From: Hyphomicrobiales bacterium
GTDB taxonomy: Bacteria; Pseudomonadota; Alphaproteobacteria; Rhizobiales; Rhizobiaceae
Length of the DNA: 64,000 nucleotides
Assembly: GCA_021775455.1 (NCBI GenBank)
Contig: JAJFHU010000045.1
Location: 1-64,000, forward strand
Direction: 5' to 3'
The notes beneath the pieces are model-generated. The model did no database searches. It was not told where the DNA came from and was given only the letters and a program-made list of their open reading frames with translations. A program made the position numbers and the translations under genes. Below, piece by piece: positions 48,245 to 64,000 of the stretch; position 1 is the stretch's first letter; each line of letters starts with the position of its first letter.

Positions 48245-49109
48245 GATCAGACACGATCTGGAAAAGTTTCTGCAATCCGCAGGTGCATTTGCGCTTGTGG
48301 AAATTGAAATGGTGCACGGATCAACGCCGCGCGAAAAGGGTGCTTGGATGCTGGTCTCCAACGACAGAACTTTTCGAACCATTGGTGGTGGTCAACTAGA
48401 AAACATGGCTATTGAGAAGGCGCGCAAACTCCTCAGTGCACCGGATGGAAAATCGGTCGAAATGCGAATTCCGCTCGGACCCCACATTGGGCAATGTTGT
48501 GGCGGGTTGGTGAATCTACGAATTGCGCGATTAGGCAATTCCGAAATCGCTGACTTGGCCAACCGTTTCAAATTGGAGATGGATGAATTGCCGGATGTTC
48601 TGATTTTCGGCGCGGGACATGTAGGTAAAGCACTCGCCCAGGCGTTGTCTTTGCTGCCTGTTAAGCCGATACTGATTGATACCCGGGTGGAAGAACTAAT
48701 GTCTGCGCCAAAGCATGTGGATACACGTCAGGTTGCAATACCAGAAGCTGAAGTGCGTAATGCACGCAACGGCAGTGCTTTCGTTATTCTCACCCATGAC
48801 CACTCGCTCGATTTTCTCATTGCAAGGGAAGCATTGGCTCGCAGAGATGCGGCCTATGTTGGGATGATTGGTTCCCGCACAAAACGGGCCACGTTCCGCA
48901 ATTGGCTCCGCCGCGAAAATGGAAATGAGGTCGGCATGGATCAACTGGTATGTCCGATTGGGGACGGACCGGTTTCAGACAAACGCCCAGAAGTTATTGC
49001 GGCACTCGTTGTTGCAGAAATTGTTTCGTGTCTGGATGCAAGAGCCAACAAATGCCAAAGCGCTAAAATTCAACTTGAAAACATCAAAATTACCGGGGTA
49101 GGTGGATGA
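48237..49109 (+). CDS. xdhC: Xanthine dehydrogenase maturation factor XdhC
   Basis: The protein has 290 residues. It has the XdhC/CoxI N-terminal segment with IEMVHGSTPREKGAWMLV, the IGGGQLE motif, GPHIGQCCGGLV, and a C-terminal Rossmann domain (VLIFGAGHVGKALAQAL). XdhC binds and sulfurates the molybdenum cofactor before insertion into XdhB. It overlaps xdhB by 8 nt and the next ABC ATPase gene by 4 nt, so enzyme and transporter are one operon. Confidence 0.92.
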   Translation: MYKIRHDLEKFLQSAGAFALVEIEMVHGSTPREKGAWMLVSNDRTFRTIGGGQLENMAIEKARKLLSAPDGKSVEMRIPLGPHIGQCCGGLVNLRIARLGNSEIADLANRFKLEMDELPDVLIFGAGHVGKALAQALSLLPVKPILIDTRVEELMSAPKHVDTRQVAIPEAEVRNARNGSAFVILTHDHSLDFLIAREALARRDAAYVGMIGSRTKRATFRNWLRRENGNEVGMDQLVCPIGDGPVSDKRPEVIAALVVAEIVSCLDARANKCQSAKIQLENIKITGVGG

Positions 49110-50665
49110 ACAACCAACCAGACAATCGCGTTGAACTGCGTGGTATCACCAAGGCCTTTCCGGGAGTTCTGGCCAATGATGATGTGAGTTTTAAAATAGC
49201 GCCGGGAGAAATTCACGCCCTGTTGGGTGAAAATGGTGCTGGCAAGTCAACTCTGGTCAAGATGATCTACGGCATTATGCAACCAGATGCCGGTGAAATC
49301 ATTTGGGAAGGGTCCCCGGTAATCGTCACCAATCCAAAGGCCGCCCGCAAGATGGGCGTGGGCATGGTGTTTCAGCATTTCTCCTTATTTGAGGCGATGA
49401 CAGTTCTGGAGAATATTGCGTTGGGAATGGACAGCAGTATCTCACAATCTGAGTTGGAAGGTAAAATTCGCGATGTGATGCACAAATATGGATTAAAACT
49501 AGATCCGCATCGAATTGTCAGCACTTTAAGTGTTGGGGAGCGGCAACGCATCGAGATTGTAAGAGCCCTGCTGCTTGATCCAAAACTCTTGATTATGGAT
49601 GAACCGACTTCAGTCTTGACGCCGCAGGAAGTAAATCAGCTGTTTGGAACATTACGGCAGCTGTCCTCAACTGGGTGTTCCATCCTTTACATCTCCCACA
49701 AACTCCATGAAATCAAGGAACTGTGTGAGCAGGCAACCATTCTAAGAGGCGGCCGGGTCGTGGGTGACTGCGATCCGCGAAAAGAAACCTCTACCAGTAT
49801 GGCGGAAATGATGATCGGCGGGAACCTCAAACAGGTATCCAAGGGCGATGATCGCAGTTTTGGCCCAGTGAAGATTGCCGTTGATGGTTTAACTCAAGCT
49901 GGTGATGGAAATTTTGGGATGGCATTGGACAATATTTCCTTTTCCGTGCGCTCTGGGGAAATTTTCGGAATCGCTGGTGTGGCCGGTAACGGCCAAAACG
50001 AGTTGATGCTTGCATTGAGCGGGGAAACTCAATCCAACAGCGGCAATGCGATCCGACTGGACGATAGACCGGTTGGAGAAATTGGATGCCTGCAGAGAAG
50101 GTCTGAGGGGCTGTGCGCAGTGCCAGAAGAGCGCAATGGCCATGCCGCGGTCCTCGAATTCAGCCTGACCGAAAATTCTATCCTGACTGCCCGGGACCGA
50201 ATGGGTTTGTCAAAGAATGGCCTGATCAGCAATTCAAACGCTGTGTCTTACACTGATCAGGTAATTTCAACGTTTGGCGTTAAGGCAACCGGAGCTGAAT
50301 CTACCGCTGGATCATTGTCTGGCGGTAATCTTCAAAAATTCATTGTCGGGCGGGAGATCATGCAAAATCCTGAAGTGCTTGTCGTTTCTCAACCAACCTG
50401 GGGGGTTGATGCTGGTGCGGCCGCAACCATCCACCAAGCGCTGTTTGATCTTGCGAACAATGGCTCGGCGATCATTGTCATTTCCCAGGATCTCGATGAA
50501 TTGCTCGCAATTTGCGACAACATTGCGGTGATTAACGAGGGCATGTTGTCCAAAACACTGAAAGTAGGTGAGGCATCAATAGATGAAATTGGCCTTCTCA
50601 TGGGCGGTGTCCACGGTGACCCCTTCGCCACTGCTGAAATGACGGAGGCTGTCCATGCTCATTGA
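49106..50665 (+). CDS. BMP-type nucleoside/nucleobase ABC transporter ATPase (double domain)
   Basis: The protein has 519 residues with two ATP-binding domains. The first has Walker A GENGAGKST, signature LSVGERQRIEI and Walker B LLIMDEPTSVLTP. The second has a degenerate Walker A (GVAGNGQNE) and signature LSGGNLQKF, as in RbsA/YufO-type ATPases. With the two following permeases and the BMP-type binding protein it forms an importer for purine nucleosides or bases. Its place directly behind xdhC supports a purine substrate. Confidence 0.9.
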   Translation: MNNQPDNRVELRGITKAFPGVLANDDVSFKIAPGEIHALLGENGAGKSTLVKMIYGIMQPDAGEIIWEGSPVIVTNPKAARKMGVGMVFQHFSLFEAMTVLENIALGMDSSISQSELEGKIRDVMHKYGLKLDPHRIVSTLSVGERQRIEIVRALLLDPKLLIMDEPTSVLTPQEVNQLFGTLRQLSSTGCSILYISHKLHEIKELCEQATILRGGRVVGDCDPRKETSTSMAEMMIGGNLKQVSKGDDRSFGPVKIAVDGLTQAGDGNFGMALDNISFSVRSGEIFGIAGVAGNGQNELMLALSGETQSNSGNAIRLDDRPVGEIGCLQRRSEGLCAVPEERNGHAAVLEFSLTENSILTARDRMGLSKNGLISNSNAVSYTDQVISTFGVKATGAESTAGSLSGGNLQKFIVGREIMQNPEVLVVSQPTWGVDAGAAATIHQALFDLANNGSAIIVISQDLDELLAICDNIAVINEGMLSKTLKVGEASIDEIGLLMGGVHGDPFATAEMTEAVHAH

Positions 50666-51737
50666 ACTTGAACGACGAAAGCAGCCAAGTCGTACCATGT
50701 TATACCTCACGCCGGTCATTGCCGTTCTGTCAACTATGTTTGCAGGGGCAGTCATATTCACTTTGATTGGTCACGATGGCATTGGCGCGGTGCGCGAAAT
50801 CTTCATCACACCGCTGATAGATCCCTACAAGTGGCAGGATCTCGGCATCAAGGCAGCTCCACTCATTCTGATAGCGTGCGGTCTGGCATTCGGTTTTCGG
50901 GCCAATGTCTGGAATATTGGTGCCGAAGGGCAGTATGTTATTGGCGGACTTGCTGGAACCGGCATTGCCTTGGCAACCTGGGGAATGGAAGGCTGGTGGA
51001 TATTGCCATTGATGTGCCTGGCCGGAATGGTTGGTGGCGCTCTCTACGCGGCAATACCGGCATTCTTGAAAACCCGATTGCAGGTAAATGAAATCTTGTC
51101 CAGTCTGATGCTGACTTACGTGTCGATCCAGTTGCTTTACTATTTGATGAGAGGGCCGTGGAAAGACCCTGATGGGTTCAACTTCCCGCAAACGCGCCTG
51201 TTCACGGATTCCCAGATATTGCCGGAGATTATTCCTGGAACCATTGTGCATCTGGGCGTGCCACTGGCCCTAATCATTGTTTTGATTGCGTGGATTGTGC
51301 TGGATAAGTCGGTTTTCGGCTTCCAGATACGCGTTGTGGGTGCAGCACCTGCTGCTGCTCGATATGGCGGCTTTAGTGCCAAAAAGACAATTTGGGCTGC
51401 AATGCTGATAGGCGGTGGATTTGCTGGATTGGCGGGGATTTTTGAAGCTGCTGGTCCATTCGGCCAGATGGTGCCGCAATTCCCTACTGGATACGGATTT
51501 ACAGCAATCATCGTGGCGTTTCTTGGAAGGCTCCATCCAATCGGAATAATATTGGCAGGAATAATACTCGCAGTATCATATGTCGGCGGTGAAATTGCAC
51601 AAACATCGCTGGGGTTACCAAACGCAGCTGCCGGAATTTTCCAGGCCATGATGTTATTCTTTCTGTTGGCGACGGACATTCTTGTACGTTACCGCCTCAA
51701 ATTTTCATCCACCGTGACGTCAGGAGATGCATCATGA
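50655..51737 (+). CDS. BMP-type ABC transporter permease (YufP-like)
   Basis: The protein has 360 residues and about nine to ten membrane spans, with the family motif NVWNIGAEGQYVIGGLAG and GGFAGLAGIFEAAGPFGQM. It overlaps the ATPase gene by 11 nt and the next permease by 4 nt. It is one half of the membrane channel for the predicted purine or nucleoside importer. Confidence 0.9.
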   Translation: MLIELERRKQPSRTMLYLTPVIAVLSTMFAGAVIFTLIGHDGIGAVREIFITPLIDPYKWQDLGIKAAPLILIACGLAFGFRANVWNIGAEGQYVIGGLAGTGIALATWGMEGWWILPLMCLAGMVGGALYAAIPAFLKTRLQVNEILSSLMLTYVSIQLLYYLMRGPWKDPDGFNFPQTRLFTDSQILPEIIPGTIVHLGVPLALIIVLIAWIVLDKSVFGFQIRVVGAAPAAARYGGFSAKKTIWAAMLIGGGFAGLAGIFEAAGPFGQMVPQFPTGYGFTAIIVAFLGRLHPIGIILAGIILAVSYVGGEIAQTSLGLPNAAAGIFQAMMLFFLLATDILVRYRLKFSSTVTSGDAS

Positions 51738-52657
51738 ATGATACAATCCTGATATCCATACTGATGACCATCGTTGGCGCTTCGACTCCAATATTGCTTG
51801 CGGCAATTGGTGAACTGATTGTCGAGAAAAGCGGAGTTCTCAATCTAGGCATCGAAGGCATGATGCTGATCGGGGCCGTAACTGGTTTTGCTGTGGCAAC
51901 AACTACCGGGCAACCGGTATTGGCAATCCTTGTTGCGATGTTGGCAGCAATGGCAGCTTCATTCCTGTTCGGCTATCTGACATTGACACTAACAGCCAAT
52001 CAGGTTGCAACGGGTCTCGCCCTGACGATTTTTGGAATTGGTTTGTCCTCGCTAATGGGAGAATCCTATGTAGGTAAGACAACAGAAGTTTTCGGTTCCT
52101 GGTTCCCAAGCGGGTTGGCGGAACACCCGCAACTACGGGTAATTTTTGGCTATAGTCCGATTGTGTATTTCTCATTGATAATGACTGTCGCAGTAAGTTA
52201 TTTCCTGCGTAAAACGCGCGCCGGATTAATACTGCGCGCTGTTGGAGAATCCGATATTTCCGCCCATTCAATAGGATATTCTGTAATAGGAGTGCGCTAT
52301 GCCGCAGTTTTGTTTGGCGGGGCGATGGCAGGAATTGCGGGATGCTATTATTCACTTGTTCTAACGCCGCTGTGGTCTGAAGAACTGACTGCAGGACGAG
52401 GCTGGATAGCACTTGCTCTAGTAGTGTTTTCTGCCTGGCGTCCCGGAAGATTACTGCTCGGCGCCTATCTATTTGGAGCTGTCATGACATTGGAGCTTCA
52501 CGCAAAAGCTGCGGGATTTTCCTATGTCGCACCGGAAATGCTGGCAGCGATGCCTTATCTGGCGACCATTGCTGTGCTGGCATTGATCTCATTGAAAAAA
52601 TCAGGCGCGTCTGCAGCACCGGCGTGCCTCACAAAACCATTTAAACCAAACGCTTAA
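51734..52657 (+). CDS. BMP-type ABC transporter permease (YufQ-like)
   Basis: The protein has 307 residues, mostly hydrophobic. The motifs ILLAAIGELIVEKSGVLNLG and IEGMMLIGAV are typical of the second permease of BMP-type importers, and GWIALALVVFSAWRPGRLLLG lies near the C-terminus. It pairs with the preceding permease. Confidence 0.9.
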   Translation: MNDTILISILMTIVGASTPILLAAIGELIVEKSGVLNLGIEGMMLIGAVTGFAVATTTGQPVLAILVAMLAAMAASFLFGYLTLTLTANQVATGLALTIFGIGLSSLMGESYVGKTTEVFGSWFPSGLAEHPQLRVIFGYSPIVYFSLIMTVAVSYFLRKTRAGLILRAVGESDISAHSIGYSVIGVRYAAVLFGGAMAGIAGCYYSLVLTPLWSEELTAGRGWIALALVVFSAWRPGRLLLGAYLFGAVMTLELHAKAAGFSYVAPEMLAAMPYLATIAVLALISLKKSGASAAPACLTKPFKPNA

Positions 52658-52678
52658 AATTCAACATCGGGAGGAATT

Positions 52679-53755
52679 ATGATGAAGAAGTTTACAAGAA
52701 GAAGTGTTCTAAAGTCCGCAGCCGTGGCTGGTACGCTGCCACTGCTTGGTAAATCCGCTTTTGCGGCTGACCCACTAAAGGTTGCATTTGTATATTTGGG
52801 GCCGATTGGTGACCATGGTTGGACCTATGCCCATGAACAGGGACGCGTCGCAGCAGTTGAAAAGTTTGGCGGAGCCATTGAGGCTACCTACGTCGAAAAT
52901 GTAGATGAGGGACCGGATTCCGAACGTGTGGTCAGGCGCCTTGTTGAAGAAGGTAATGATCTGATTTTTACCACATCTTTCGGATATATGAACCCGACCT
53001 TGAAGGTTGCAAAACGCAACAAGGAAGTGAAATTCGAGCACGCTACCGGTTATCAACAGGCTCCAAACATGTCGACCTACAATCTGCGTTTCTACGAAGG
53101 CAGGGCGGTATGTGGAACGATTGCTGGACATATGTCCAAGAGCGCAACAGCCGGATACATTGCTTCATTTCCAATTCCAGAAGTTGTAATGGGAATCAAT
53201 GCTTTCACCCTGGCTGCACGGCGGGTTAACCCCGATTTCAAAACGAATGTTCTATGGGTATCCAGTTGGTACGACCCGGCAAAAGAAGCAGATGCAGCCA
53301 AAGCATTGATCGACCAGGGTGCAGATATCATCTCACAGCATACGGACAGTCCGGCAGCACTTCAGGCTTGCGAGCAACGCAACCTGATGGCATTTGGCCA
53401 AGCTTGGGATATGTCATCCTTTGCCCCGAATGCACACTTGACGGCAATACGAAACAACTGGGGTGTTTACTACATTGACCGGATTCAAAAAGTTCTGGAC
53501 GAAAAGTGGGAAAGTGGAGACACTTGGTGGGGATTCCAACAAGGTGCAATCGAGATGACTCCTTACAATAAACGTATCCCTGCAGATGTAGTAGCAGCGG
53601 CTGAAGCCGTCAGGACTGGCCTTGCAGATGGTAGCGGCAACGCATTTTCCGGCCCTATCAAGGATCAGGCTGGTGAAGTACGCCTTGAAGAAGGCGCTTT
53701 GACTGATGGTGATCTCCACAAGATGGAGTGGTATGTTGAAGGGGTCCAAAGCTAA
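52679..53755 (+). CDS. BMP-family substrate-binding protein with Tat-type signal
   Basis: The protein has 358 residues and a GGGAGGAATT ribosome-binding site. The signal peptide carries a twin-arginine motif (TRRSVLKSA) and ends after KSAFA. The mature part (DPLKVAFVYLGPIGDHGWTY) is a basic-membrane-protein (PnrA/BMP) domain, the family that binds nucleosides and nucleobases. No lipobox cysteine is present, so it should be soluble in the periplasm. It is the last gene of the transporter set and is followed by a hairpin. Confidence 0.88.
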   Translation: MMKKFTRRSVLKSAAVAGTLPLLGKSAFAADPLKVAFVYLGPIGDHGWTYAHEQGRVAAVEKFGGAIEATYVENVDEGPDSERVVRRLVEEGNDLIFTTSFGYMNPTLKVAKRNKEVKFEHATGYQQAPNMSTYNLRFYEGRAVCGTIAGHMSKSATAGYIASFPIPEVVMGINAFTLAARRVNPDFKTNVLWVSSWYDPAKEADAAKALIDQGADIISQHTDSPAALQACEQRNLMAFGQAWDMSSFAPNAHLTAIRNNWGVYYIDRIQKVLDEKWESGDTWWGFQQGAIEMTPYNKRIPADVVAAAEAVRTGLADGSGNAFSGPIKDQAGEVRLEEGALTDGDLHKMEWYVEGVQS

Positions 53756-53793
53756 GGCTGGGCTTCAACACTACACACAACAAGAACACTCAG

Positions 53794-53812
53794 CGGGGGC
53801 ACTCAGCCCTCG
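53794..53812 (+). terminator. Hairpin after the BMP binding-protein gene
   Basis: CGGGGGC and GCCCTCG pair (7 bp with one G-U) around a 5-nt loop, 39 bp after the stop codon and before guaD. No run of T follows, so it is more likely a stabilising or attenuating structure than a full terminator. Confidence 0.45.
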
Positions 53813-53844
53813 CATGAGAATATATGCGCGGGCTTGTAACCATC

Positions 53845-55140
53845 ATGAGCATCACAATAATTCGTGGCCGTATCCTGAATTTTATTGAAGAGCCCAAGGC
53901 TCATGATGATGAGTCTTGCTATAGCTACATTGAAGATGGCGCAGTCGCTGTTGAAGGCGGAAAAATTATTGCCTGTGAAGAGTACGATGCTATCCGCAAA
54001 CAGTATCAAGAAGTGCAGACTGATGATCACCGGCCAAATCTGATTTTACCCGGCTTCATCGACACACATCTCCATTTTCCACAAACCCAGGTTATCGGTT
54101 CATTCGGTGCAAAGTTGCTCGACTGGCTCAACAACTACACATTTGTTGAAGAACAAAAATATGCTGATCCTGCCCATTGCAAACGTATGGCGGGATACTT
54201 TTTCGATTTTCTTTTGAAACACGGAACAACAACCGCCGTTGCTTTTTGTTCAGTTCACAAAGCATCGGCGGAAGCGTTTTTCACTGAGGCAGAACGTCGA
54301 AATTTGCGAATGATTGCAGGCAAGGTAATGATGGACCGCAATGCGCCTGAAGCGCTCTGCGATACACCGCAATCGAGTTACGACGACAGCAAGGCGCTGA
54401 TTGAGAAATGGCATGGACGGGGCAGGGCACACTATGCAATTTCTCCGAGGTTTGCAATCACATCTACTCCAACTCAACTGGAAATGGCGCAGGCTTTGGT
54501 GCGGGAGCATCCAGATTGTTACATGCAGACACATTTATCTGAAAATCACGACGAGATTGAATACGCCAGGGAGCTTTATCAGTCGGCGCGGGATTATCTC
54601 GATGTATATGAGATGTACGATTTACTCGGGCCTAAAAGCCTGTTCGGCCACTGCATCCATCTATCAGAACGCGAATGCGAAGCGATGGCGGAAACCGGAT
54701 CGGTTGCAGTGTTCTGTCCGACCTCAAACCTGTTTTTGGGAAGCGGTCTTTTCGACATGGATGGGTTGCAGGCAAAGGGTGTGCGCACTGCAATAGCGAC
54801 TGACATTGGAGGGGGCACCAGCTACTCCATGCTCAAGACGCTGGATGAAGCTTACAAAATACTTCAGCTACGCAACCAGATTCTCAATCCGCTGAAGTCA
54901 TTCTTTATGATGACCCTTGGCAATGCTCGCGCACTGTCGCTTGAAGCGCAGATTGGAACTCTGGATGCGGGAAGTGAGGCGGACATTGTGGTCCTCGATT
55001 CCAGTGCCACGGATGCAATGGCATTACGCATGGAGACTGTCGAAACGCTGAGCGAAGAATTGTTCATGTTGCAAACGATGGGGGACGATCGCGCTGTCTC
55101 AACGGTATATATTGCTGGGCGGATGCAGGATATTATCTGA
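53845..55140 (+). CDS. guaD: Guanine deaminase
   Basis: The start is either 53845 (MSITIIRGRILNF) or 53824; neither has a strong ribosome-binding site. The protein of about 431 residues is an amidohydrolase with the zinc motif GFIDTHLHFPQTQ (His75, His77), QTHLSENHDE, GHCIHLSE and the final metal aspartate in ATDIGGGTS. These match guanine deaminase. It turns guanine into xanthine for XdhABC. It ends one base from the convergent 8-oxoguanine deaminase gene. Confidence 0.9.
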   Translation: MSITIIRGRILNFIEEPKAHDDESCYSYIEDGAVAVEGGKIIACEEYDAIRKQYQEVQTDDHRPNLILPGFIDTHLHFPQTQVIGSFGAKLLDWLNNYTFVEEQKYADPAHCKRMAGYFFDFLLKHGTTTAVAFCSVHKASAEAFFTEAERRNLRMIAGKVMMDRNAPEALCDTPQSSYDDSKALIEKWHGRGRAHYAISPRFAITSTPTQLEMAQALVREHPDCYMQTHLSENHDEIEYARELYQSARDYLDVYEMYDLLGPKSLFGHCIHLSERECEAMAETGSVAVFCPTSNLFLGSGLFDMDGLQAKGVRTAIATDIGGGTSYSMLKTLDEAYKILQLRNQILNPLKSFFMMTLGNARALSLEAQIGTLDAGSEADIVVLDSSATDAMALRMETVETLSEELFMLQTMGDDRAVSTVYIAGRMQDII

Positions 55141-56487
55141 TTACAAACTGTCCGCCAGCCGGTGCGCAAGATGATTTTGTTTTTCAATCACGGCGCCGAT
55201 TTCAACTTCCTCAAGGTTGCCAGATTTGACGACGCATTTTCCCTCTACGACAAGATCACGCACATTCATGGGGCCGCACAACACCAATGCAGCAACGGGA
55301 TCCCAGCTACCGGCTGCTTCCAGTCCTGAAATGTCCCATATGGCAATGTCAGCACGTTTGCCGACTTCGAACGATCCACAGTCATCACGGCCCAGCACGT
55401 TTGCCCCTCCAAGTGTTGCTATCTCCAGCACCTCTCGGGCACTCATGGCATCTGCACCATTTTGCACCCGTTGCAGCAACATGGCCTGACGCGCTTCTGA
55501 AATCATGTGTCCAGCGTCATTGGATGCTGAACCATCAACTCCCAATCCAACTTTTACGCCAGCATCGCGCATGGCTCGAACCGGGGCAATTCCAGAACCG
55601 AGCCTGCAATTGGAACAGGGGCAATGGGCGACACCGGTTCGGGTCTTGGAGAAAAGATCAATCTCTCGCGTATCCAGTTTCACGCAATGGGCATGCCACA
55701 CATCATCACCGATCCATCCTAATTCTTCTGCAAACTGCCCTGGTCGGCAGCCAAATCTTTCCAGGCTATAGGCAATGTCTTCTTCATTTTCGGCAAGATG
55801 GGTGTGCAGCATCACTTTCTTGTCCCGTGCCAGCAGTGCGGCCTCCCGCATCAGGTCTTGGCTAACGGTAAAGGGAGAACACGGGGCAATGCCAACCCTA
55901 AGCATGGAACCAGGATTGGCGTCATGGTAATCATCAACAACTCTAATGCAGTCTTCGAGAATATCATTTTCATTTTCGACCACGCTGTCCGGCGGTAATC
56001 CACCATTGCTTTCCCCAATGCTCATTGATCCGCGTGTCGGATGGAAGCGAATTCCAATGGACTTTGCCGCTTCTATTGTATCATCCAGCTTCGCACCATT
56101 TGGATACAAATAGAGATGGTCGCTACTCATGCTGCATCCAGAATGGGCAAGTTCCGCCAATCCAATCTGGGCAGAAACGAAAAATTCCTCAGGTCCGAAT
56201 TTTTCCCAAATTGGATAAAGAGTCTTAAGCCAGCCGAACAAGAGTGCATCCTGGCCGCCCGGCACTACCCGGGTAAGGCTCTGGTACAAGTGGTGATGCG
56301 TGTTCACCAATCCAGGTGTCACAACACAACCAGCAGCGTCAATAATTTCGTCTGCAGTGTCTGGATGGTCTTTGCCAACCGCCTCTATGACGCCATCACG
56401 AGCGAACAGGTGACCTTGTTTGATTTCGCTCCGACCCTCATCCATGGTGACGAGAACTTCAGCGTTTTTGATCAATAAGGTGGCCAT
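55141..56487 (-). CDS. 8-oxoguanine deaminase
   Basis: The 448-residue amidohydrolase has LVNTHHHLYQSLTRV, SSDHLYLYPNG, LHTHLAENEED, WHAHCVKLD and VGLGVDGSASND, the pattern of 8-oxoguanine deaminases and related hydroxyatrazine-type enzymes. The likely reaction is 8-oxoguanine to urate and ammonia, which feeds PuuD directly. It is convergent with guaD. Confidence 0.8.
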   Translation of the reverse strand: MATLLIKNAEVLVTMDEGRSEIKQGHLFARDGVIEAVGKDHPDTADEIIDAAGCVVTPGLVNTHHHLYQSLTRVVPGGQDALLFGWLKTLYPIWEKFGPEEFFVSAQIGLAELAHSGCSMSSDHLYLYPNGAKLDDTIEAAKSIGIRFHPTRGSMSIGESNGGLPPDSVVENENDILEDCIRVVDDYHDANPGSMLRVGIAPCSPFTVSQDLMREAALLARDKKVMLHTHLAENEEDIAYSLERFGCRPGQFAEELGWIGDDVWHAHCVKLDTREIDLFSKTRTGVAHCPCSNCRLGSGIAPVRAMRDAGVKVGLGVDGSASNDAGHMISEARQAMLLQRVQNGADAMSAREVLEIATLGGANVLGRDDCGSFEVGKRADIAIWDISGLEAAGSWDPVAALVLCGPMNVRDLVVEGKCVVKSGNLEEVEIGAVIEKQNHLAHRLADSL

Positions 56488-56554: not shown

Positions 56555-57700
56555 TTACAAACAGGCTTCAATTAGTGTCCTGGTGTTATCGGCGGTCATT
56601 TCAACAGGATTTCCACCGGTACTTGGATCGGCTAGTGCATCTTTCACCAACCGGTCAATGTCCGGATTGGTCACACCGAGTTCTGTAAGGTTCTTTGGGA
56701 TGCCAAGCATGGTGTTCAACTCACCAACAAACTCAAAGAATCCATCAAATCCACCTTCTATTCCAAGATAATGTGACGCGTGGATTAAAACACTTTCGGC
56801 AGCGTCGCGGTTAAATTTCAGAACTTCCTGCATGACAACAGCATTTGTCGTACCGTGGTGTGTATGATGATGTGCGCCGATCGGGTGTGAAAGTGCATGA
56901 ATGGCGCCTAAGCCTTTTTGAAAGGCTGTTGCACCCATGGCTGCAGCACTCATCATGTGAGCGCGGGCTTCAATATCCGTTCCATCCTTGAATGCACGAG
57001 GGAGATTTTCCTTTACGAGTCGCATGCCCTCCAGAGCCATCCCTTGTGACATTGGGTGGTAGTGCGGTGAGCAAAATGCCTCGAGACAGTGCGCAAATGC
57101 GTCCATGCCAGTTCCTGCCGTTATAAATGGAGGCATACCTACGGTTAGTTCCGGATCGCAAATCACGACAGAGGGAAGAATTTTAGGATGAAAGATAATT
57201 TTCTTTTCGTGGGTTTCAGTGTTGGTAATAACACTCGCTCGCCCAACCTCTGAACCTGTTCCCGCAGTAGTTGGAACCGCAACAATTGGATCAATCGCAC
57301 CCACGTCAGCTCTGGTCCACCAGTCTCCCACATCCTCAAAGTCCCAAATAGGGCGCTTTTGACCAGCCATGAAGGCAAGTACCTTTCCCAGATCAAGGCC
57401 GGAACCGCCTCCAAAGGCTACGACACCATTATGCCCGCCTTCGTGATAGGCCTTCAGTCCATCTTCAACATTCTTGCCATTTGGGTTTGGATCAACGTCG
57501 GCGAATATAGCTCGGCCCAGTCCAGCGGCATCTAAAAGATCAAGGGTGTTTTGGGTAATTTCCATGTTTGCCAGTCCCTTGTCGGTGACCAACAGGGGTT
57601 TGGATATTCCTGCAGCACTACATGCGTCGGCAATTTCGGAAATGCGTCCTGCGCCAAAACGTATGGCAGTGGGGTAAGACCAGTTTGCAGTTATAGTCAT
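56555..57700 (-). CDS. Iron-containing alcohol dehydrogenase
   Basis: The 381-residue protein has the type III ADH pattern: GGGSGLDLGK, PTTAGTGSEVGRASVI, and the metal-ligand region HALSHPIGAHHHTHHG. It oxidises or reduces a small alcohol or aldehyde with NAD(P). It lies 4 bp after the aldehyde dehydrogenase gene, so the two probably form a two-step alcohol-to-acid route. The substrate is unknown. Confidence 0.88.
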   Translation of the reverse strand: MTITANWSYPTAIRFGAGRISEIADACSAAGISKPLLVTDKGLANMEITQNTLDLLDAAGLGRAIFADVDPNPNGKNVEDGLKAYHEGGHNGVVAFGGGSGLDLGKVLAFMAGQKRPIWDFEDVGDWWTRADVGAIDPIVAVPTTAGTGSEVGRASVITNTETHEKKIIFHPKILPSVVICDPELTVGMPPFITAGTGMDAFAHCLEAFCSPHYHPMSQGMALEGMRLVKENLPRAFKDGTDIEARAHMMSAAAMGATAFQKGLGAIHALSHPIGAHHHTHHGTTNAVVMQEVLKFNRDAAESVLIHASHYLGIEGGFDGFFEFVGELNTMLGIPKNLTELGVTNPDIDRLVKDALADPSTGGNPVEMTADNTRTLIEACL

Positions 57701-57704
57701 GGGC

Positions 57705-59081
57705 TTAACTCTTCTTCAAATGATAAGATTTTGGTCGGGTTAGGGCATGAAAACCGAGTACGGACAATCCGGCTCCGCGCCCGGTATCTTTGCATCCGGT
57801 CCAGCACAGGGCCGGATCAAGATAGTCGCACCGGTTCATGAAAACGGTTCCGGTTTCAATGCGCGCGCCGATGGCTTCAGCACGAGATGCATCTTTGGTC
57901 CATAAAGATGCTGTCAGGCCAAATTGGCTGTCATTCATCAGCGCAATGGCTTCCTGATCATTCTTGACGCTCATGATGCCAACAACAGGTCCAAAGCTTT
58001 CATCCCGCATGACACGCATATCATGATTGACGTTGGTTAGGATTTGCGGCGTCAAGTATGCCGCGCCATCATCCTCGGCAAAGGTATCGATATGGGCTTT
58101 GGCACCATCCGCGACCGCTTCGGCAATCTGTTCCCGCACTTCCTTTGCAAATCTCACATTCGCCATTGGGCCGATCGTAACTTCCGGATCAAACGGATTG
58201 CCAAGCTTGTATGTGTTGACCAGGGCGACTGCTTTTTCGACAAATGCATTAAAAAGACTTTCATGCACATAGATACGTTCTATCCCGCAACAACACTGGC
58301 CGGCATTGAACATCGCACCATCTATCAATGTATCAACGGCTGCATCCAGATCAGCATCTTCCATGACGTAGCCTGGATCCTTGCCACCGAGTTCAGTGGA
58401 TACCGCAGTAAAAGTACCGGCGGCAGCGCGTTCCATCGCCTTTCCGCCCCCCACTGATCCGGTAAAATTGACAAAATCGAATAAACCTTCGCCGATCAGG
58501 GTAGAGGTTGTGTCATGATCAAGAAAAACATTCTGAAACACATCAGCCGGTGCACCTGCCTCGGTAAATGCCTCGACCATGCGTTCTCCCACCAGTAGCG
58601 TTTGGGTAGCATGCTTCAGTATAACTGTGTTACCGGCAATCAAGGCCGGTGCAACCGTATTGATGGCTGTCATGTAGGGGTAGTTCCAGGGCGCAACAAC
58701 AAAGACGACACCCTGCGGTTCGCGCTTGATCTTCCGCACGAACTGATTACTGACTTCGACTTCGATGGGTGCCAGCGCCTTTTCCGCAATTCTTGCCATG
58801 TATTCAGCGCGTTCCTGAAATCCGCCAAATTCACCTCCATAACGAACTGGTCTACCCATTTGGTGTGCCAGTTCTTCAGCCATGCGGTCAGTGGTTTCGC
58901 CTACTTTGGCAACACCTGCACGAACCAGTTCGATGCGCTCAACCAGCGGGCGGGCAGCCCATTCGGTTTGCGCTTGCCGAGCTGCTTTGGCAACGGCACG
59001 TGCGGCATCCAGTGACAGCGTTTCGCGTGTAGCGTAAACTGAACCATCGATGGGGGAAATGCATTCAAGCAATTTACTCAT
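57705..59081 (-). CDS. Aldehyde dehydrogenase family protein
   Basis: The start at 59081 (MSKLLECISPIDGSVYATRE) follows an AGAGG site; a longer frame begins at 59102 inside the preceding gene. The 458-residue protein has VVAPWNYPYMTAINTVAPAL, FTGSVGGGKAM, the general-base glutamate in ELGGKDP and the catalytic cysteine in NAGQCCCGIER. It oxidises an aldehyde to the acid. Its place between a glutamine-synthetase-like ligase and an alcohol dehydrogenase suggests a gamma-glutamylated aldehyde. Confidence 0.88.
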   Translation of the reverse strand: MSKLLECISPIDGSVYATRETLSLDAARAVAKAARQAQTEWAARPLVERIELVRAGVAKVGETTDRMAEELAHQMGRPVRYGGEFGGFQERAEYMARIAEKALAPIEVEVSNQFVRKIKREPQGVVFVVAPWNYPYMTAINTVAPALIAGNTVILKHATQTLLVGERMVEAFTEAGAPADVFQNVFLDHDTTSTLIGEGLFDFVNFTGSVGGGKAMERAAAGTFTAVSTELGGKDPGYVMEDADLDAAVDTLIDGAMFNAGQCCCGIERIYVHESLFNAFVEKAVALVNTYKLGNPFDPEVTIGPMANVRFAKEVREQIAEAVADGAKAHIDTFAEDDGAAYLTPQILTNVNHDMRVMRDESFGPVVGIMSVKNDQEAIALMNDSQFGLTASLWTKDASRAEAIGARIETGTVFMNRCDYLDPALCWTGCKDTGRGAGLSVLGFHALTRPKSYHLKKS

Positions 59082-59098
59082 ACTTTTACCTCTAAAAC

Positions 59099-60466
59099 TC
59101 AAGCCCGCTCAAAACCGCGCGCCACTTCCCAATCGGTGACGACTCGGTCAAATTCTTCCTGTTCCCACTCTGCACATCTGGTGTAATGCGCAACGACTTC
59201 ATCCCCAAACGCTTCCTTCAGCATCGCTGATTTGCGGAGGGTTTCGGTTGCATCCCTTAGCGTTGAGGGAATTGCTTTTGCCTTCTTGGCATCATAGACG
59301 TCTCCTGTGGTGGGAGCGGGTAGTTCAGGCTTGTCCTCAAGCCCCTTGATACCGGCAGCCAGCTGTGCCGCCAGTGCGAGATATGGATTAATGTCTGAAC
59401 CACCAATGCGGCATTCCATGCGAATACCTTTGGTGCCTTCACCGCAAAGACGGAAACCGGCAGTGCGATTGTCAATTGACCAGACGACTTTGGTGGGCGC
59501 GAATGTACCCTTGGCAAATCGTTTGTAGGAATTCACATACGGTGCCAAAAAGAATGTGTAATCGGGCGCGTATTTTATGAGACCCGCGCAATAGTTGCGC
59601 ATGGTTTGGGACATACCCAGCGCGTCATTCTTGTCATGGAATGCTGGTTCGCCGTTCTTGGTCCACAGGGATTGGTGAACATGAGAAGAGGAGCCAACCT
59701 TTTTGTGATCCCACTTTGGCAGGAATGAAGCTGCCCGGCCATGTTGCCAGGCGATTTCCTTGGTCGCGTGCTTGGCAATCGTATGATAGTCCGCACAAGA
59801 CATAGCATCCGCATATCTGATGTTGAGTTCTTCCTGACCGGCTTCGGCTTCCCCTTTCGAATTTTCTATGGGGATCCCTGCATTAAAGAGATGGTTGCGC
59901 AGTGGGCGCATTATCTCTTCTTCCTTTGTTGTCTGAAGGATGTTGTAGTCCTCATTGTAACCACTGATCGGTATAAGATCGCGGAAACCAGACTTGCGAA
60001 TTTCATCGTAACTATTTTCAAACAGGAAGAATTCCAGTTCGGTCGCCATCATGGCCGAGAGGCTCATCGCTTCCAGTCTTGCAACCTGCTTTTTTAGAAT
60101 GCTCCGGGGCGTATGCGGGACTTCTTCGTGCGTATGATGATCAAGAATGTCACAAAGCACCATGGCAGTGCCTTCAAGCCAGGGCATCAACCGAATAGTT
60201 GAAAGATCTGGCTTCATGACGTAGTCGCCATAACCAGATTCCCAACTTGTCGATGCATAACCATCTGGTGTCTCCATTTCCAGATCGGTCGCAAGCAGAT
60301 AGTTGCAGCAGTGCGTTTCTTCAAATGAATGGTCGAGGAAATTCTGTGCGTGAAAACGTTTGCCCATCATGCGTCCTTGCATGTCAACCAGACAAACCAG
60401 AACCGTATCAATTGTGCCATCCTTTACGGATGACTTGAGTTCATCAAAAGACAGTGTACCGGACAT
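59099..60466 (-). CDS. Glutamine-synthetase-like gamma-glutamyl-amine ligase
   Basis: The 455-residue protein has the GS fold: an N-terminal beta-grasp with LVDMQGRMMGKR, the catalytic segment ATELEFFLFE, ENSKGEAEAGQEELN, GSSSHVHQSLW and the C-terminal NRTAGFRLCG plus RIGGSDINPYLALAAQLAAG. It resembles GlnT/PuuA-type enzymes rather than the housekeeping GlnA, and lacks the GlnA adenylylation loop as far as I can see. The likely reaction is ATP-dependent joining of glutamate to an amine. It follows the TRAP operon hairpin. Confidence 0.8.
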   Translation of the reverse strand: MSGTLSFDELKSSVKDGTIDTVLVCLVDMQGRMMGKRFHAQNFLDHSFEETHCCNYLLATDLEMETPDGYASTSWESGYGDYVMKPDLSTIRLMPWLEGTAMVLCDILDHHTHEEVPHTPRSILKKQVARLEAMSLSAMMATELEFFLFENSYDEIRKSGFRDLIPISGYNEDYNILQTTKEEEIMRPLRNHLFNAGIPIENSKGEAEAGQEELNIRYADAMSCADYHTIAKHATKEIAWQHGRAASFLPKWDHKKVGSSSHVHQSLWTKNGEPAFHDKNDALGMSQTMRNYCAGLIKYAPDYTFFLAPYVNSYKRFAKGTFAPTKVVWSIDNRTAGFRLCGEGTKGIRMECRIGGSDINPYLALAAQLAAGIKGLEDKPELPAPTTGDVYDAKKAKAIPSTLRDATETLRKSAMLKEAFGDEVVAHYTRCAEWEQEEFDRVVTDWEVARGFERA

Positions 60467-60501
60467 TACTTTATCTCATTAATAAGGTTTACAAGGATGA
60501 T

Positions 60502-60526
60502 GAAGCACCGGAATGTCCGGTGCTTC
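60502..60526 (-). terminator. Strong hairpin between TRAP binding-protein and ligase genes
   Basis: GAAGCACCGGA (60502-60512) pairs perfectly with TCCGGTGCTTC (60516-60526) around a 3-nt loop. On the minus strand it lies 18 bp after the dctP stop; no T-run follows on that strand (ATCATCCTTG), so attenuation or RNA protection is likelier than full termination. On the plus strand GTTTTCG follows. Confidence 0.65.
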
Positions 60527-60544
60527 GTTTTCGTTCAGCTTCAT

Positions 60545-61579
60545 TTAGCCGTAGCGGTAAGGCCGACCTGCCTTCACCATGTCGGCATTGTATTTCTTGA
60601 AGATATCGACGACTCGGCGCTTTGTGTCCGACTCGGCGGCGATTTCTTCCCAGAACACCTGTGCGGCATCCTCGACAGTTTTCCACTCTTCGTCCGGTAT
60701 GGAAGTCAATTCCATCTTCGGTCCGTTGACGCGAAGATCTGCCTCACCGCCCCAGTACCACCACTGACGGTAATAGTGTGACTGATCACAACATACGCGG
60801 AACAGTGTTTGCAGATCCTCCGGCAGCTCGTTCCAGCGATCCATGTTGGCAAAGAAGGATCCAGCCCACGCACCAGAGATGTTGTTGGTCAGGAAGTAGT
60901 TGGTCACATCTGCCCATCCAACGGTGTAATCCTCGGTAATGCCGGACCATGCGATCCCATCAAGCTCACCGGTTTGCACCGCAACTTCGATGTCTTCCCA
61001 GGGCAAAGTCACGGGTACAACTCCAAATTGGGTCAGGAAGCGACCAGCCGTCGGGAAGGTAAAGACCCGCTTGCCCTGCAGATCAGCCAGACTGCGGATC
61101 GGATCTTTGGTGGCAAAGTGACATGGATCCCATGAGCCGGCAGAAATGTGCTTCACACCAACCTTGGAATACTCCTCGTCCCAGATTTCATTGAGGCCAT
61201 ACTGGTTAAACAACACCGGCACGTCCAGCGAATAGCGGGAGCCAAACGGGAAGTAGCCACCGAACACTGTGACTTCAGTTGGCGACGCCATGGAGTCATC
61301 ATCTGACTGCACTGCATCAATCGTGCCCTTCTGCATCGCACGGAACAATTCACCGGTTGGAACCAACTGGTCGCCAAAGAATAGCTCAATCTGCATACGG
61401 TCACCAGCAATCTTGTTAAACATCTCAATCGCCGGTGTGATGACATGGGCAGCCAACGCAGCACCAGCATAGGTTTGCATGCGCCACTTGATTGTCGACT
61501 GCGCGATTGCCGGTGTGGCAAGTGCTGCCGCTGGTGCGGCAATTGCTGCACCTTTGATAAACTTACGTCTGGTAGTCAT
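60545..61579 (-). CDS. TRAP transporter substrate-binding protein DctP, Tat-type signal
   Basis: The 344-residue protein has a twin-arginine signal (TTRRKFIKGA, end near TPAIA). The mature protein starts QSTIKWRMQTYAG and has the conserved substrate-carboxylate segment with LQGKRVFTFPTAGRFLTQFG. It matches the large-substrate branch of DctP proteins, whose ligands include keto acids and amino-acid-like compounds. It is encoded 61 bp after dctM. Confidence 0.9.
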   Translation of the reverse strand: MTTRRKFIKGAAIAAPAAALATPAIAQSTIKWRMQTYAGAALAAHVITPAIEMFNKIAGDRMQIELFFGDQLVPTGELFRAMQKGTIDAVQSDDDSMASPTEVTVFGGYFPFGSRYSLDVPVLFNQYGLNEIWDEEYSKVGVKHISAGSWDPCHFATKDPIRSLADLQGKRVFTFPTAGRFLTQFGVVPVTLPWEDIEVAVQTGELDGIAWSGITEDYTVGWADVTNYFLTNNISGAWAGSFFANMDRWNELPEDLQTLFRVCCDQSHYYRQWWYWGGEADLRVNGPKMELTSIPDEEWKTVEDAAQVFWEEIAAESDTKRRVVDIFKKYNADMVKAGRPYRYG

Positions 61580-61640
61580 GACACTTCTCCTTCAAGTTGA
61601 TTTTCGTTTTTATAATGTTTGCTCCTTCATGGAGTTCTCG

Positions 61641-62963
61641 TTATTTCCCGTACACATGGTCTGGTAACCAAAGCGCGATTTGCGGGAAGACCATGATCAA
61701 GATCAAAGCCAACAGCATCACGCATACAAATGGAAAGATGGAACCATAAATGTCTCGCAGAGTGATTTCAGGAGGTGCCATCGCCCGCATTAAAAACAAA
61801 TTGTAGCCAAATGGTGGGGTCATGTAAGCAATCTGCGTGGTGATTGTATAAAGCACCCCATACCAGATCAAATCGAAACCAAGAGCCCCAACCAACGGTA
61901 CATAAAGCGGCGCGACTATGACCAGCATCGCCGTATCATCCAAAAAAGTTCCCATCAGCAGGAATGACAACTGCATCAGGATCAAGATCAGCCAGGGGTC
62001 AAGGCCGAGTTGCTCCGTGAACAGATTATCAATTGCCCGAACAGCACCAAGCCCATCAAAGACTGCCCCGAACCCAAGTGCAGCAAGAATGATCCACATG
62101 AACATGCAGGAAATGGCGAGCGTCTGTCGAACCGAAACTTCAAACACTTCACGATTCATCCTCCGTTTGAGAACGGCTGCCAAAAACGCTGTCATCGCAC
62201 CAATGGCAGAACTCTCCACCAAAGAGGTCCAGCCATTCACAAATGGCACCATCATGGCCGCAAAGATTGCAATTGGAAGAACTCCTGCACGAAGTAAGCG
62301 CAATTTCTCACTCATGGAAACATCGCGCTCTTCCTTGGCCAGTGCCGGACCAAGTTCCGGTTGTATCCTGCACCGGATGTAGATGTAGAGAATGAACAGG
62401 GCTGCCATCATCAGACCCGGCATGACGCCTGCCAACCACAACTGGCCCACCGGTTGCCGCGCAATCATGGCATACAGCACAAGCACAACAGATGGCGGAA
62501 CAAGAATACCCAGTGATGATCCCGCCTGAATTACACCGGTCACCATGCGCTTGTCGTAACCGCGACGTAATAACTCCGGCAGCGCGATGGTCGCACCAAT
62601 TGCCATACCGGCAACCGAAAGCCCGTTCATCGCAGAAACCAGAACCATCAGTCCGATTGTTCCAATCGCTAGGCCACCGTTTACCGGACCCATCCAGACA
62701 TGAAACATCTTGTAAAGGTCATCAGCAATCCTGGATTCAGAAAGTATGTACCCCATGAAAATAAACATTGGCAGTGTTAAAAGCGGGTACCACTTCATCA
62801 GTTTCATGGCTGAAGAAAATGGAATGTCTGATCCGCCTGTTCCCCAAAGTGAGAGCGCTGCGATGGCCGCAATTGCTCCGATAGCCCCAAACACGCGTTG
62901 ACCGGTAAACAGCATAATCATCATGGTTGAAAACATGAAAATGGCGATCATTTCCTGGGACAT
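61641..62963 (-). CDS. TRAP transporter large permease DctM
   Basis: The 440-residue protein has about 11-12 membrane spans, including the DctM motifs GNGxSVAGMAIGATIALPELLRR-like region (seen as MNGLSVAGMAIGATIALPEL), IQAGSSLGILVPPSV and the LDDTAMLVIVAPLY segment. It is the ion-coupled translocation subunit of the TRAP system. It overlaps the dctQ stop by one base. Confidence 0.92.
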   Translation of the reverse strand: MSQEMIAIFMFSTMMIMLFTGQRVFGAIGAIAAIAALSLWGTGGSDIPFSSAMKLMKWYPLLTLPMFIFMGYILSESRIADDLYKMFHVWMGPVNGGLAIGTIGLMVLVSAMNGLSVAGMAIGATIALPELLRRGYDKRMVTGVIQAGSSLGILVPPSVVLVLYAMIARQPVGQLWLAGVMPGLMMAALFILYIYIRCRIQPELGPALAKEERDVSMSEKLRLLRAGVLPIAIFAAMMVPFVNGWTSLVESSAIGAMTAFLAAVLKRRMNREVFEVSVRQTLAISCMFMWIILAALGFGAVFDGLGAVRAIDNLFTEQLGLDPWLILILMQLSFLLMGTFLDDTAMLVIVAPLYVPLVGALGFDLIWYGVLYTITTQIAYMTPPFGYNLFLMRAMAPPEITLRDIYGSIFPFVCVMLLALILIMVFPQIALWLPDHVYGK

Positions 62964-63529
62964 TAAAGTTCAGTCCCCCGGATTTTCGCTATGTCTTTGA
63001 TTAGTTCAGATATTGCCTGCAGAAGCATCATGAATATGCCAAAACACATAATTATCTTGATCGGCCAGATATAGGGACGCCAAGCAGTGGAGCTACGCTC
63101 CAGCCTTCCAATTTCTTCAGAGCCTGTAATAAGCCCCGTAAAAAAGCTAACCGGTTCATCAGAATAATGCCCGAGTGAATATGCAGTTGAGGCAATCGCG
63201 CCATAAAGCAATACGCCAAGGTAAAAGAGAAGGAAAAATACCGTAAATGCGTCTACCTGTGCTTTACGCCGGTCGCTCCATTCGCCATAAAACAGATCCA
63301 TGCGAACGTTTGAACCCAACTGGATTGAATAGGGCCCGCCAAGAATGTAGTAGGCAACCATGGCGAATTGCGCAATTTCGAGTGTCCACAACGATGGGAA
63401 GAAGAATGTCTTTGAAATCGAAGACCAAAGCAAAATCCCAACCATGACAAAAATGCCATACATGATAATGCGACCAACACGGTAGTTGATTTGGTCCACT
63501 GTCCTGACATAAGCAGAGGCGAATTTCAT
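62963..63529 (-). CDS. TRAP transporter small permease DctQ
   Basis: The 188-residue protein has four predicted spans with the DctQ-type WTLEIAQFAMVAYYILGGPY and NVRMDLFY segments. It completes the TRAP transporter with the two proteins encoded downstream. Its ATG overlaps the preceding stop by one base, which joins it to the amidohydrolase gene upstream. Confidence 0.9.
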   Translation of the reverse strand: MKFASAYVRTVDQINYRVGRIIMYGIFVMVGILLWSSISKTFFFPSLWTLEIAQFAMVAYYILGGPYSIQLGSNVRMDLFYGEWSDRRKAQVDAFTVFFLLFYLGVLLYGAIASTAYSLGHYSDEPVSFFTGLITGSEEIGRLERSSTAWRPYIWPIKIIMCFGIFMMLLQAISELIKDIAKIRGTEL

Positions 63530-64000
63530 CAGGCATGCCTCCTGGTTGCGTAGTCGCTCTCAAGATTCGACAGCGCCTCCCCGATCAGTCGGTGCAACAT
63601 TTCCGCCGTAGTCTTGCAATCTTTTGGAGTTGAGATCAGGTCGCTCCGGATTTCAATCATTACGTTTGGAATGCCATTCGCTACACCGTGAACCTGGGCT
63701 GTATGGGTAACTCCATCTTCAGGACCATATGGCTCGTTTCGTTTGGTAACAAGATCGGTATGATTGTGCGCGATACTCAGCATGCCATCGGCAAGGGTGC
63801 TGTCCGTATCATGCAGAATTCCAAGTTCAACTTCGCGTTTCTGTCCGAAATAGACTGCGGTAAAGCTGTGGATTGTCACGAGAACTGAATTCGCAGGAAG
63901 TCTAACTAAAGCATCTTCAACGCAACGTTTAAACGGTTCATAAACATTCTCAATACGATATCGCCGTTCCGAGCCTGACAGGTTCTGGTTTCCCGGGATA
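63529..64000 (-). CDS. N-formylglutamate amidohydrolase-like protein, C-terminal part
   Basis: The frame is open from the window edge (64000) to the stop at 63529-63531, about 156 codons. Near the edge it reads IPGNQNLSGSERRYRIENV, then VLVTIHSFTAVYFGQKREVE and GVANGIPNVMIEIRSDLI, as in the N-formylglutamate amidohydrolase family (PF05013-type), including the His of TIHSFT and a Glu of MIEIR. The N-terminus lies beyond the window. Family members hydrolyse N-acylated or gamma-linked glutamates; here it may release a gamma-glutamyl product. It is first in the visible operon. Confidence 0.8.
   Translation of the reverse strand, partial: IPGNQNLSGSERRYRIENVYEPFKRCVEDALVRLPANSVLVTIHSFTAVYFGQKREVELGILHDTDSTLADGMLSIAHNHTDLVTKRNEPYGPEDGVTHTAQVHGVANGIPNVMIEIRSDLISTPKDCKTTAEMLHRLIGEALSNLESDYATRRHA

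Follow-up and report, generated by a model that had tools for sequence, protein, structure and literature searches.

A gene cluster at the end of the window, which is the whole 64,000-nucleotide stretch of Hyphomicrobiales DNA that was analyzed (positions 1 to 64,000 of contig JAJFHU010000045.1), very probably encodes the published eto-type system for ethanolamine uptake and catabolism, in which ethanolamine would be imported, joined to glutamate, oxidized twice, and finally split to glycine and glutamate. The assignment is based here on gene content, gene order, homology, and conservation, while ethanolamine binding and induction are taken from published relatives. That system is already in the literature together with its TRAP importer, and the cluster is one more instance of it, with no new mechanism.

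Using the ORF list and Pfam, we found seven co-directional genes on the minus strand between positions 56555 and 64314, the last of which crosses the window edge. Read from 64314 down to 56555, they encode an FGase-family hydrolase, the TRAP proteins DctQ, DctM, and DctP, a GS-like ligase, an aldehyde dehydrogenase (ALDH), and an iron-type alcohol dehydrogenase (Fe-ADH) (Table 1). All of them are intact ORFs, that of the hydrolase being complete on the contig only (261 aa; Pfam FGase 130 bits for the whole protein and 61 bits for the in-window part), and the Pfam family calls for Fe-ADH, Aldedh, Gln-synt_C, DctP, DctM, DctQ, and FGase were above cut-off. The gene spacing is operon-like. The hydrolase and DctQ genes overlap by 1 base, as do those of DctQ and DctM, and the ALDH and Fe-ADH genes lie 4 bases apart; between the ligase and ALDH genes there is a 14-base gap or a 4-base overlap, depending on whether ATG 59084 or TTG 59102 is chosen as the ALDH start, and the two remaining intergenic gaps are 61 and 78 bases. 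Just outside the window, at contig positions 64395 to 65303, a divergent gene encodes a regulator of the RpiR type, in which HTH_6 and SIS domains were recognized. ORFs and Pfam thus confirmed the enzymes and TRAP genes named in the original prediction (GS-like ligase, iron-type alcohol dehydrogenase, aldehyde dehydrogenase, and an FGase-like enzyme).

Table 1. Genes of the putative eto-type operon. Identities are to the same-place genes in L068, the Roseobacter sp. MED193 record.
Feature	Position	Strand	Evidence
Fe-ADH, gamma-glutamylethanolamide dehydrogenase (GETADH homologue)	56555..57700	-	Pfam Fe-ADH 160 bits; 72% identity
ALDH, gamma-glutamylacetaldehydeamide dehydrogenase (GAADDH homologue)	57705..59084	-	Pfam Aldedh 385 bits; 77%
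GS-like ligase, ethanolamine gamma-glutamylase (ETAGA homologue)	59099..60466	-	Gln-synt_C 328 bits; 73%
TRAP solute-binding protein, EtoX homologue (putative ethanolamine binding)	60545..61579	-	Pfam DctP 71 bits; 88%
TRAP large permease DctM (EtoW homologue)	61641..62963	-	Pfam DctM 226 bits; 66% over 505 aligned columns
TRAP small permease DctQ (EtoV homologue)	62963..63529	-	Pfam DctQ 56 bits; 60%
FGase-family hydrolase, gamma-glutamylglycine amidohydrolase (GGAH homologue)	63529..64000 in window, to 64314 on contig	-	48%

Beyond the alcohol dehydrogenase, the next gene encodes the 8-oxoguanine deaminase of a purine cluster. Across the best 80 of 584 confirmed relatives, the fetched stretches held no homologue of this deaminase, and it was therefore placed outside the system. 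The adjoining purine cluster (window positions 49106-56487) contains, by eye, a BmpA-type nucleoside ABC transporter, together with a guanine deaminase (662 bits; cut-off 351) and the 8-oxoguanine deaminase (693 bits; cut-off 532). Outside the window, at C40:65340-69296 (L009:5340-9296), there is a proteasome-type peptidase (35 bits; cut-off 22) that is no part of the operon, and its neighbors resemble, by eye, a transglutaminase-like protein, an alpha-E protein, and a circularly permuted ATP-grasp protein.

According to the available part of PMC10132767, the eto operon of Phaeobacter sp. MED193 (MED193_10021-10056) begins with RpiR, gamma-glutamylglycine amidohydrolase, EtoV, EtoW, and EtoX, followed by ethanolamine gamma-glutamylase, gamma-glutamylacetaldehydeamide dehydrogenase, and gamma-glutamylethanolamide dehydrogenase. 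By tblastn, all eight genes had matches in the Roseobacter sp. MED193 record, in identical order and orientation, with 49% identity for RpiR and the values in Table 1 for the others; this record was equated with MED193_10021-10056 because the strain name and the order of the genes agree, rather than on the strength of an annotation. The same part of PMC10132767 reports that MED193 EtoX binds ethanolamine with a Kd of 7.9 uM and showed no binding to four named analogues, and its Table 2 marks five proteins of the operon as increased on phosphorylethanolamine. EtoX is also up in the column for phosphate starvation (-P, 2.14, marked +), so that, as far as that table goes, induction of EtoX in MED193 is not specific to ethanolamine. 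The eto genes are there called closely related to ones with demonstrated function in Chromohalobacter salexigens and Agrobacterium tumefaciens C58.

Translated to the operon studied here, the TRAP system EtoVWX would import ethanolamine, and the GS-like ligase would join it to glutamate, with ATP being spent. The Fe-ADH would then oxidize gamma-glutamylethanolamide to gamma-glutamylacetaldehydeamide, the ALDH would oxidize this further to gamma-glutamylglycine, and the FGase-family hydrolase would split the product into glycine and glutamate; the position of the divergent RpiR-type gene suggests that its product may regulate the operon. Each of the oxidation and hydrolysis steps is a prediction, both here and in the available parts of PMC10132767 and PMC6529630. 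The route of glutamylation, oxidation to the acid, and removal of glutamate that had been proposed at the outset agrees with the MED193 eto pathway as given in the available text of PMC10132767.

Relatives were sampled with the DctP protein, and the best 80 of 584 confirmed ones were kept, so that the rates given here apply to the closest relatives only. The gene-order count used 66 of these 80, in which DctP is flanked by 5 kb or more on each side, and 14 were left out for a shorter flank on one side; a gene was scored as absent when the fetched stretch gave no tblastn match at 1e-15. All eight genes had the same order and orientation in 59 of the 66 named relatives (among the best 80 of 584), and the completeness of the arrangement in so many of them rules out a chance association. 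At least one of the eight was absent in 7 of the 66 (L013, L015, L028, L058, L066, L075, and L081; among the same best 80 of 584). Variation was also seen in DctM, which aligned over approximately 500 columns instead of 440 in the MED193 record (L068:7419-8918) and in L051, L077, and L088 (Phaeobacter/Leisingera-type), while the best-matching piece covered only approximately 228 columns in L025, L026, L069, L074, and L078. These length differences suggest an insertion in the large permease.

Among 61 near genomes, 24 had a near full-length DctP with at least 62% identity, and one more carried a partial copy (G015). The ligase was searched for in 34 of the 61, comprising the 25 genomes with a close or partial EtoX and nine of the same genus without it. 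A GS-like match at E<=1e-60 was obtained in 25/25 genomes with EtoX (only 35% identity in G042) and in 0/9 without it; this contrast is weak when taken alone, since the nine negatives all come from the genus of the window and just one (G006) is >90% complete. Importer and ligase were adjacent in 21 of the 25 genomes and apart in G008, G042, G048, and G059. With 4/25 non-adjacent and 7/66 incomplete, linkage of the TRAP system to these enzymes is not universal.

When DctP was compared with solved structures, the PDB entry 4uab stood out, with 264 of 318 aligned residues identical (83%) and 637 bits, the next match reaching 76 bits. We take 4uab to be Csal_0678 of C. salexigens with ethanolamine bound. 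In an alignment with 4yzz, Phe173 of DctP takes the place of the carboxylate-binding Arg found in ordinary TRAP binding proteins, the aligned residue of 4yzz presumably being the canonical Arg that holds the carboxylate. Position 173 was Phe in 80/80 relatives in the tblastn alignments (best 80 of 584). As described in the available part of PMC4646407, the ethanolamine binder Csal_0678 is without the canonical TRAP Arg, and Phe is the commonest replacement of this residue across TRAP binding proteins; ethanolamine is called a surprising TRAP ligand, given its positive charge, in the available part of PMC5812351. Because the Arg is replaced by Phe here, uptake of a carboxylate by this TRAP system is disfavored.

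The catalytic domain of glutamine synthetase is complete in the GS-like ligase, but Gln-synt_N scored only 19.6, under the Pfam cut-off of 33.4. Its score of 188 against gamma-glutamylputrescine synthetase (NF045547; cut-off 650) rules out that identity. The closest solved structures were 5dm3 (327 of 454 aligned columns identical, 72%) and 11zs, and we take 5dm3 to be the GS-like protein of C. salexigens. The FGase-family hydrolase is the least conserved of the enzymes, with 40 to 54% identity among relatives (best 80 of 584), and its sole PDB match was 2odf (Atu2144).

Together, the 88% identity of DctP to MED193 EtoX and its 83% identity to 4uab narrow the substrate from an amino alcohol to ethanolamine, which is, by homology, the most likely substrate of the operon. 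Of the substrates proposed in the original prediction, ethanolamine or propanolamine derivatives, ethanolamine is therefore the one favored and the propanolamine type is disfavored. The same similarity to an ethanolamine-binding protein, in an arrangement like that of MED193 (PMC10132767, available part), is consistent with the further proposal that the TRAP system imports the pathway substrate. It could be argued that the same enzymes serve another small amino alcohol, such as 1-amino-2-propanol or 3-aminopropanol, with ethanolamine as a side substrate, since the chain length cannot be read from the enzyme families and the ligase reaches neither curated NCBIfam equivalog. However, ethanolamine is bound by the protein that occupies the EtoX position in MED193, and proteins of the same operon rise on phosphorylethanolamine in the available data for that strain, and we consider such a substrate very unlikely.

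Even less credible, and in our judgment close to negligible, is a reading that takes the GS-like protein for an ordinary glutamine synthetase, places the FGase-family protein in histidine breakdown (HutG), and treats the neighboring genes as unrelated. By Pfam, the two proteins do belong to those broad families. The ligase, however, remained below the cut-offs of both NCBIfam glutamine synthetase models (TIGR00653, GlnA, 251 of 429; TIGR03105, 235 of 470), and the genome holds, on C31, another protein with a higher Gln-synt_C score (461 bits). Likewise, a second FGase-family protein on contig 14 (C14) scored 258 bits against 130 bits for the operon copy, which marks the latter as the divergent one. 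These scores, the FGase paralogue, and the eight-gene linkage kept in 59 of 66 relatives (among the best 80 of 584) argue against the glutamine synthetase and HutG assignment and favor the eto-type operon.

The relatives in which importer and enzymes are apart bear on another possibility, namely, that the two are separable modules and that in some lineages their parts are used for ethanolamine from other sources or for a different amine, which we regard as unlikely. In G008, a member of the window's genus, the TRAP system (L013:2585-10035, in G008:C15 coordinates; DctP 98% identical) occurs without the glutamylation enzymes, next to a penicillin-amidase-family hydrolase and an adenine-deaminase-like protein. 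The GS-like ligase of this genome (83%) is on another contig, away from the other eto genes and adjoining, by eye, a branched-chain-type ABC transporter, and the best alcohol dehydrogenase match (65% identity) is on a third contig; an FGase of the operon's kind was not found in G008, in a search that had no positive control of its own. G004, of the same genus, carries the complete eto arrangement (L097) as well as a second four-enzyme module of FGase, GS-like ligase, ALDH, and Fe-ADH without TRAP genes (L094:8538-13272), downstream of genes that by eye resemble a dipeptide-type ABC transporter. In L015:3277-11921, FGase and TRAP genes are present, the ligase and dehydrogenases being absent from the fetched stretch, and the neighbors encode a molybdopterin-binding protein, a 2Fe-2S protein, and an MTTB-family methyltransferase. 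No shared replacement pathway was found beside etoX in the incomplete relatives L013, L015, and L081 (nine ORFs, Pfam), and the ORF lists of L028, L057, L058, L059, and L066 revealed no common replacement on the etoX side.

In the window's own genome (99.99% complete), no match to EutB was found at E<=0.001, while E. coli, among 14 control genomes, was positive; the cobalamin-dependent ethanolamine ammonia-lyase route therefore appears to be absent. The glycine decarboxylase P protein is present in this genome, and glycine decarboxylase is a plausible sink for the glycine produced. The genome joins bacteria, many of them marine, that probably use ethanolamine, a phospholipid head group, as a source of nitrogen and carbon, with glutamylation, rather than a cobalamin-dependent lyase, as the probable route. 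The eto pathway and its oceanic weight have already been described (PMC10132767, available part). What is added here is one further instance, along with a survey of gene order among its closest relatives.

Among the known systems, the Puu pathway for gamma-glutamyl putrescine follows the same logic of glutamylation, oxidation, and hydrolysis but has another substrate, oxidase, and hydrolase; as a gamma-glutamylputrescine synthetase, the ligase here scored 188 against a cut-off of 650. The same four chemical steps as here are proposed for the GlnA4 cluster of Streptomyces coelicolor (SCO1610-SCO1615) in the available part of PMC6529630, where an FGase-family protein is named as the likely gamma-glutamylglycine hydrolase. 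That part of the source speaks of no TRAP transporter, and it describes a permease gene that is present in the cluster conserved in Streptomyces but absent in S. coelicolor. The C. salexigens pathway (Csal_0678; 4uab/4xf5; 5dm3), compared by its proteins, shows 83% identity for the binding protein and 72% for the ligase over the aligned columns. Closest in arrangement is the eto operon of Phaeobacter sp. MED193, as given in the available text of PMC10132767. Its eight genes correspond one to one to those found here, with order and orientation unchanged, its DctP is 88% identical, and it differs from the operon described here by sequence divergence only, with the MED193 DctM aligning over 505 columns compared to the 440 aa of the protein here.
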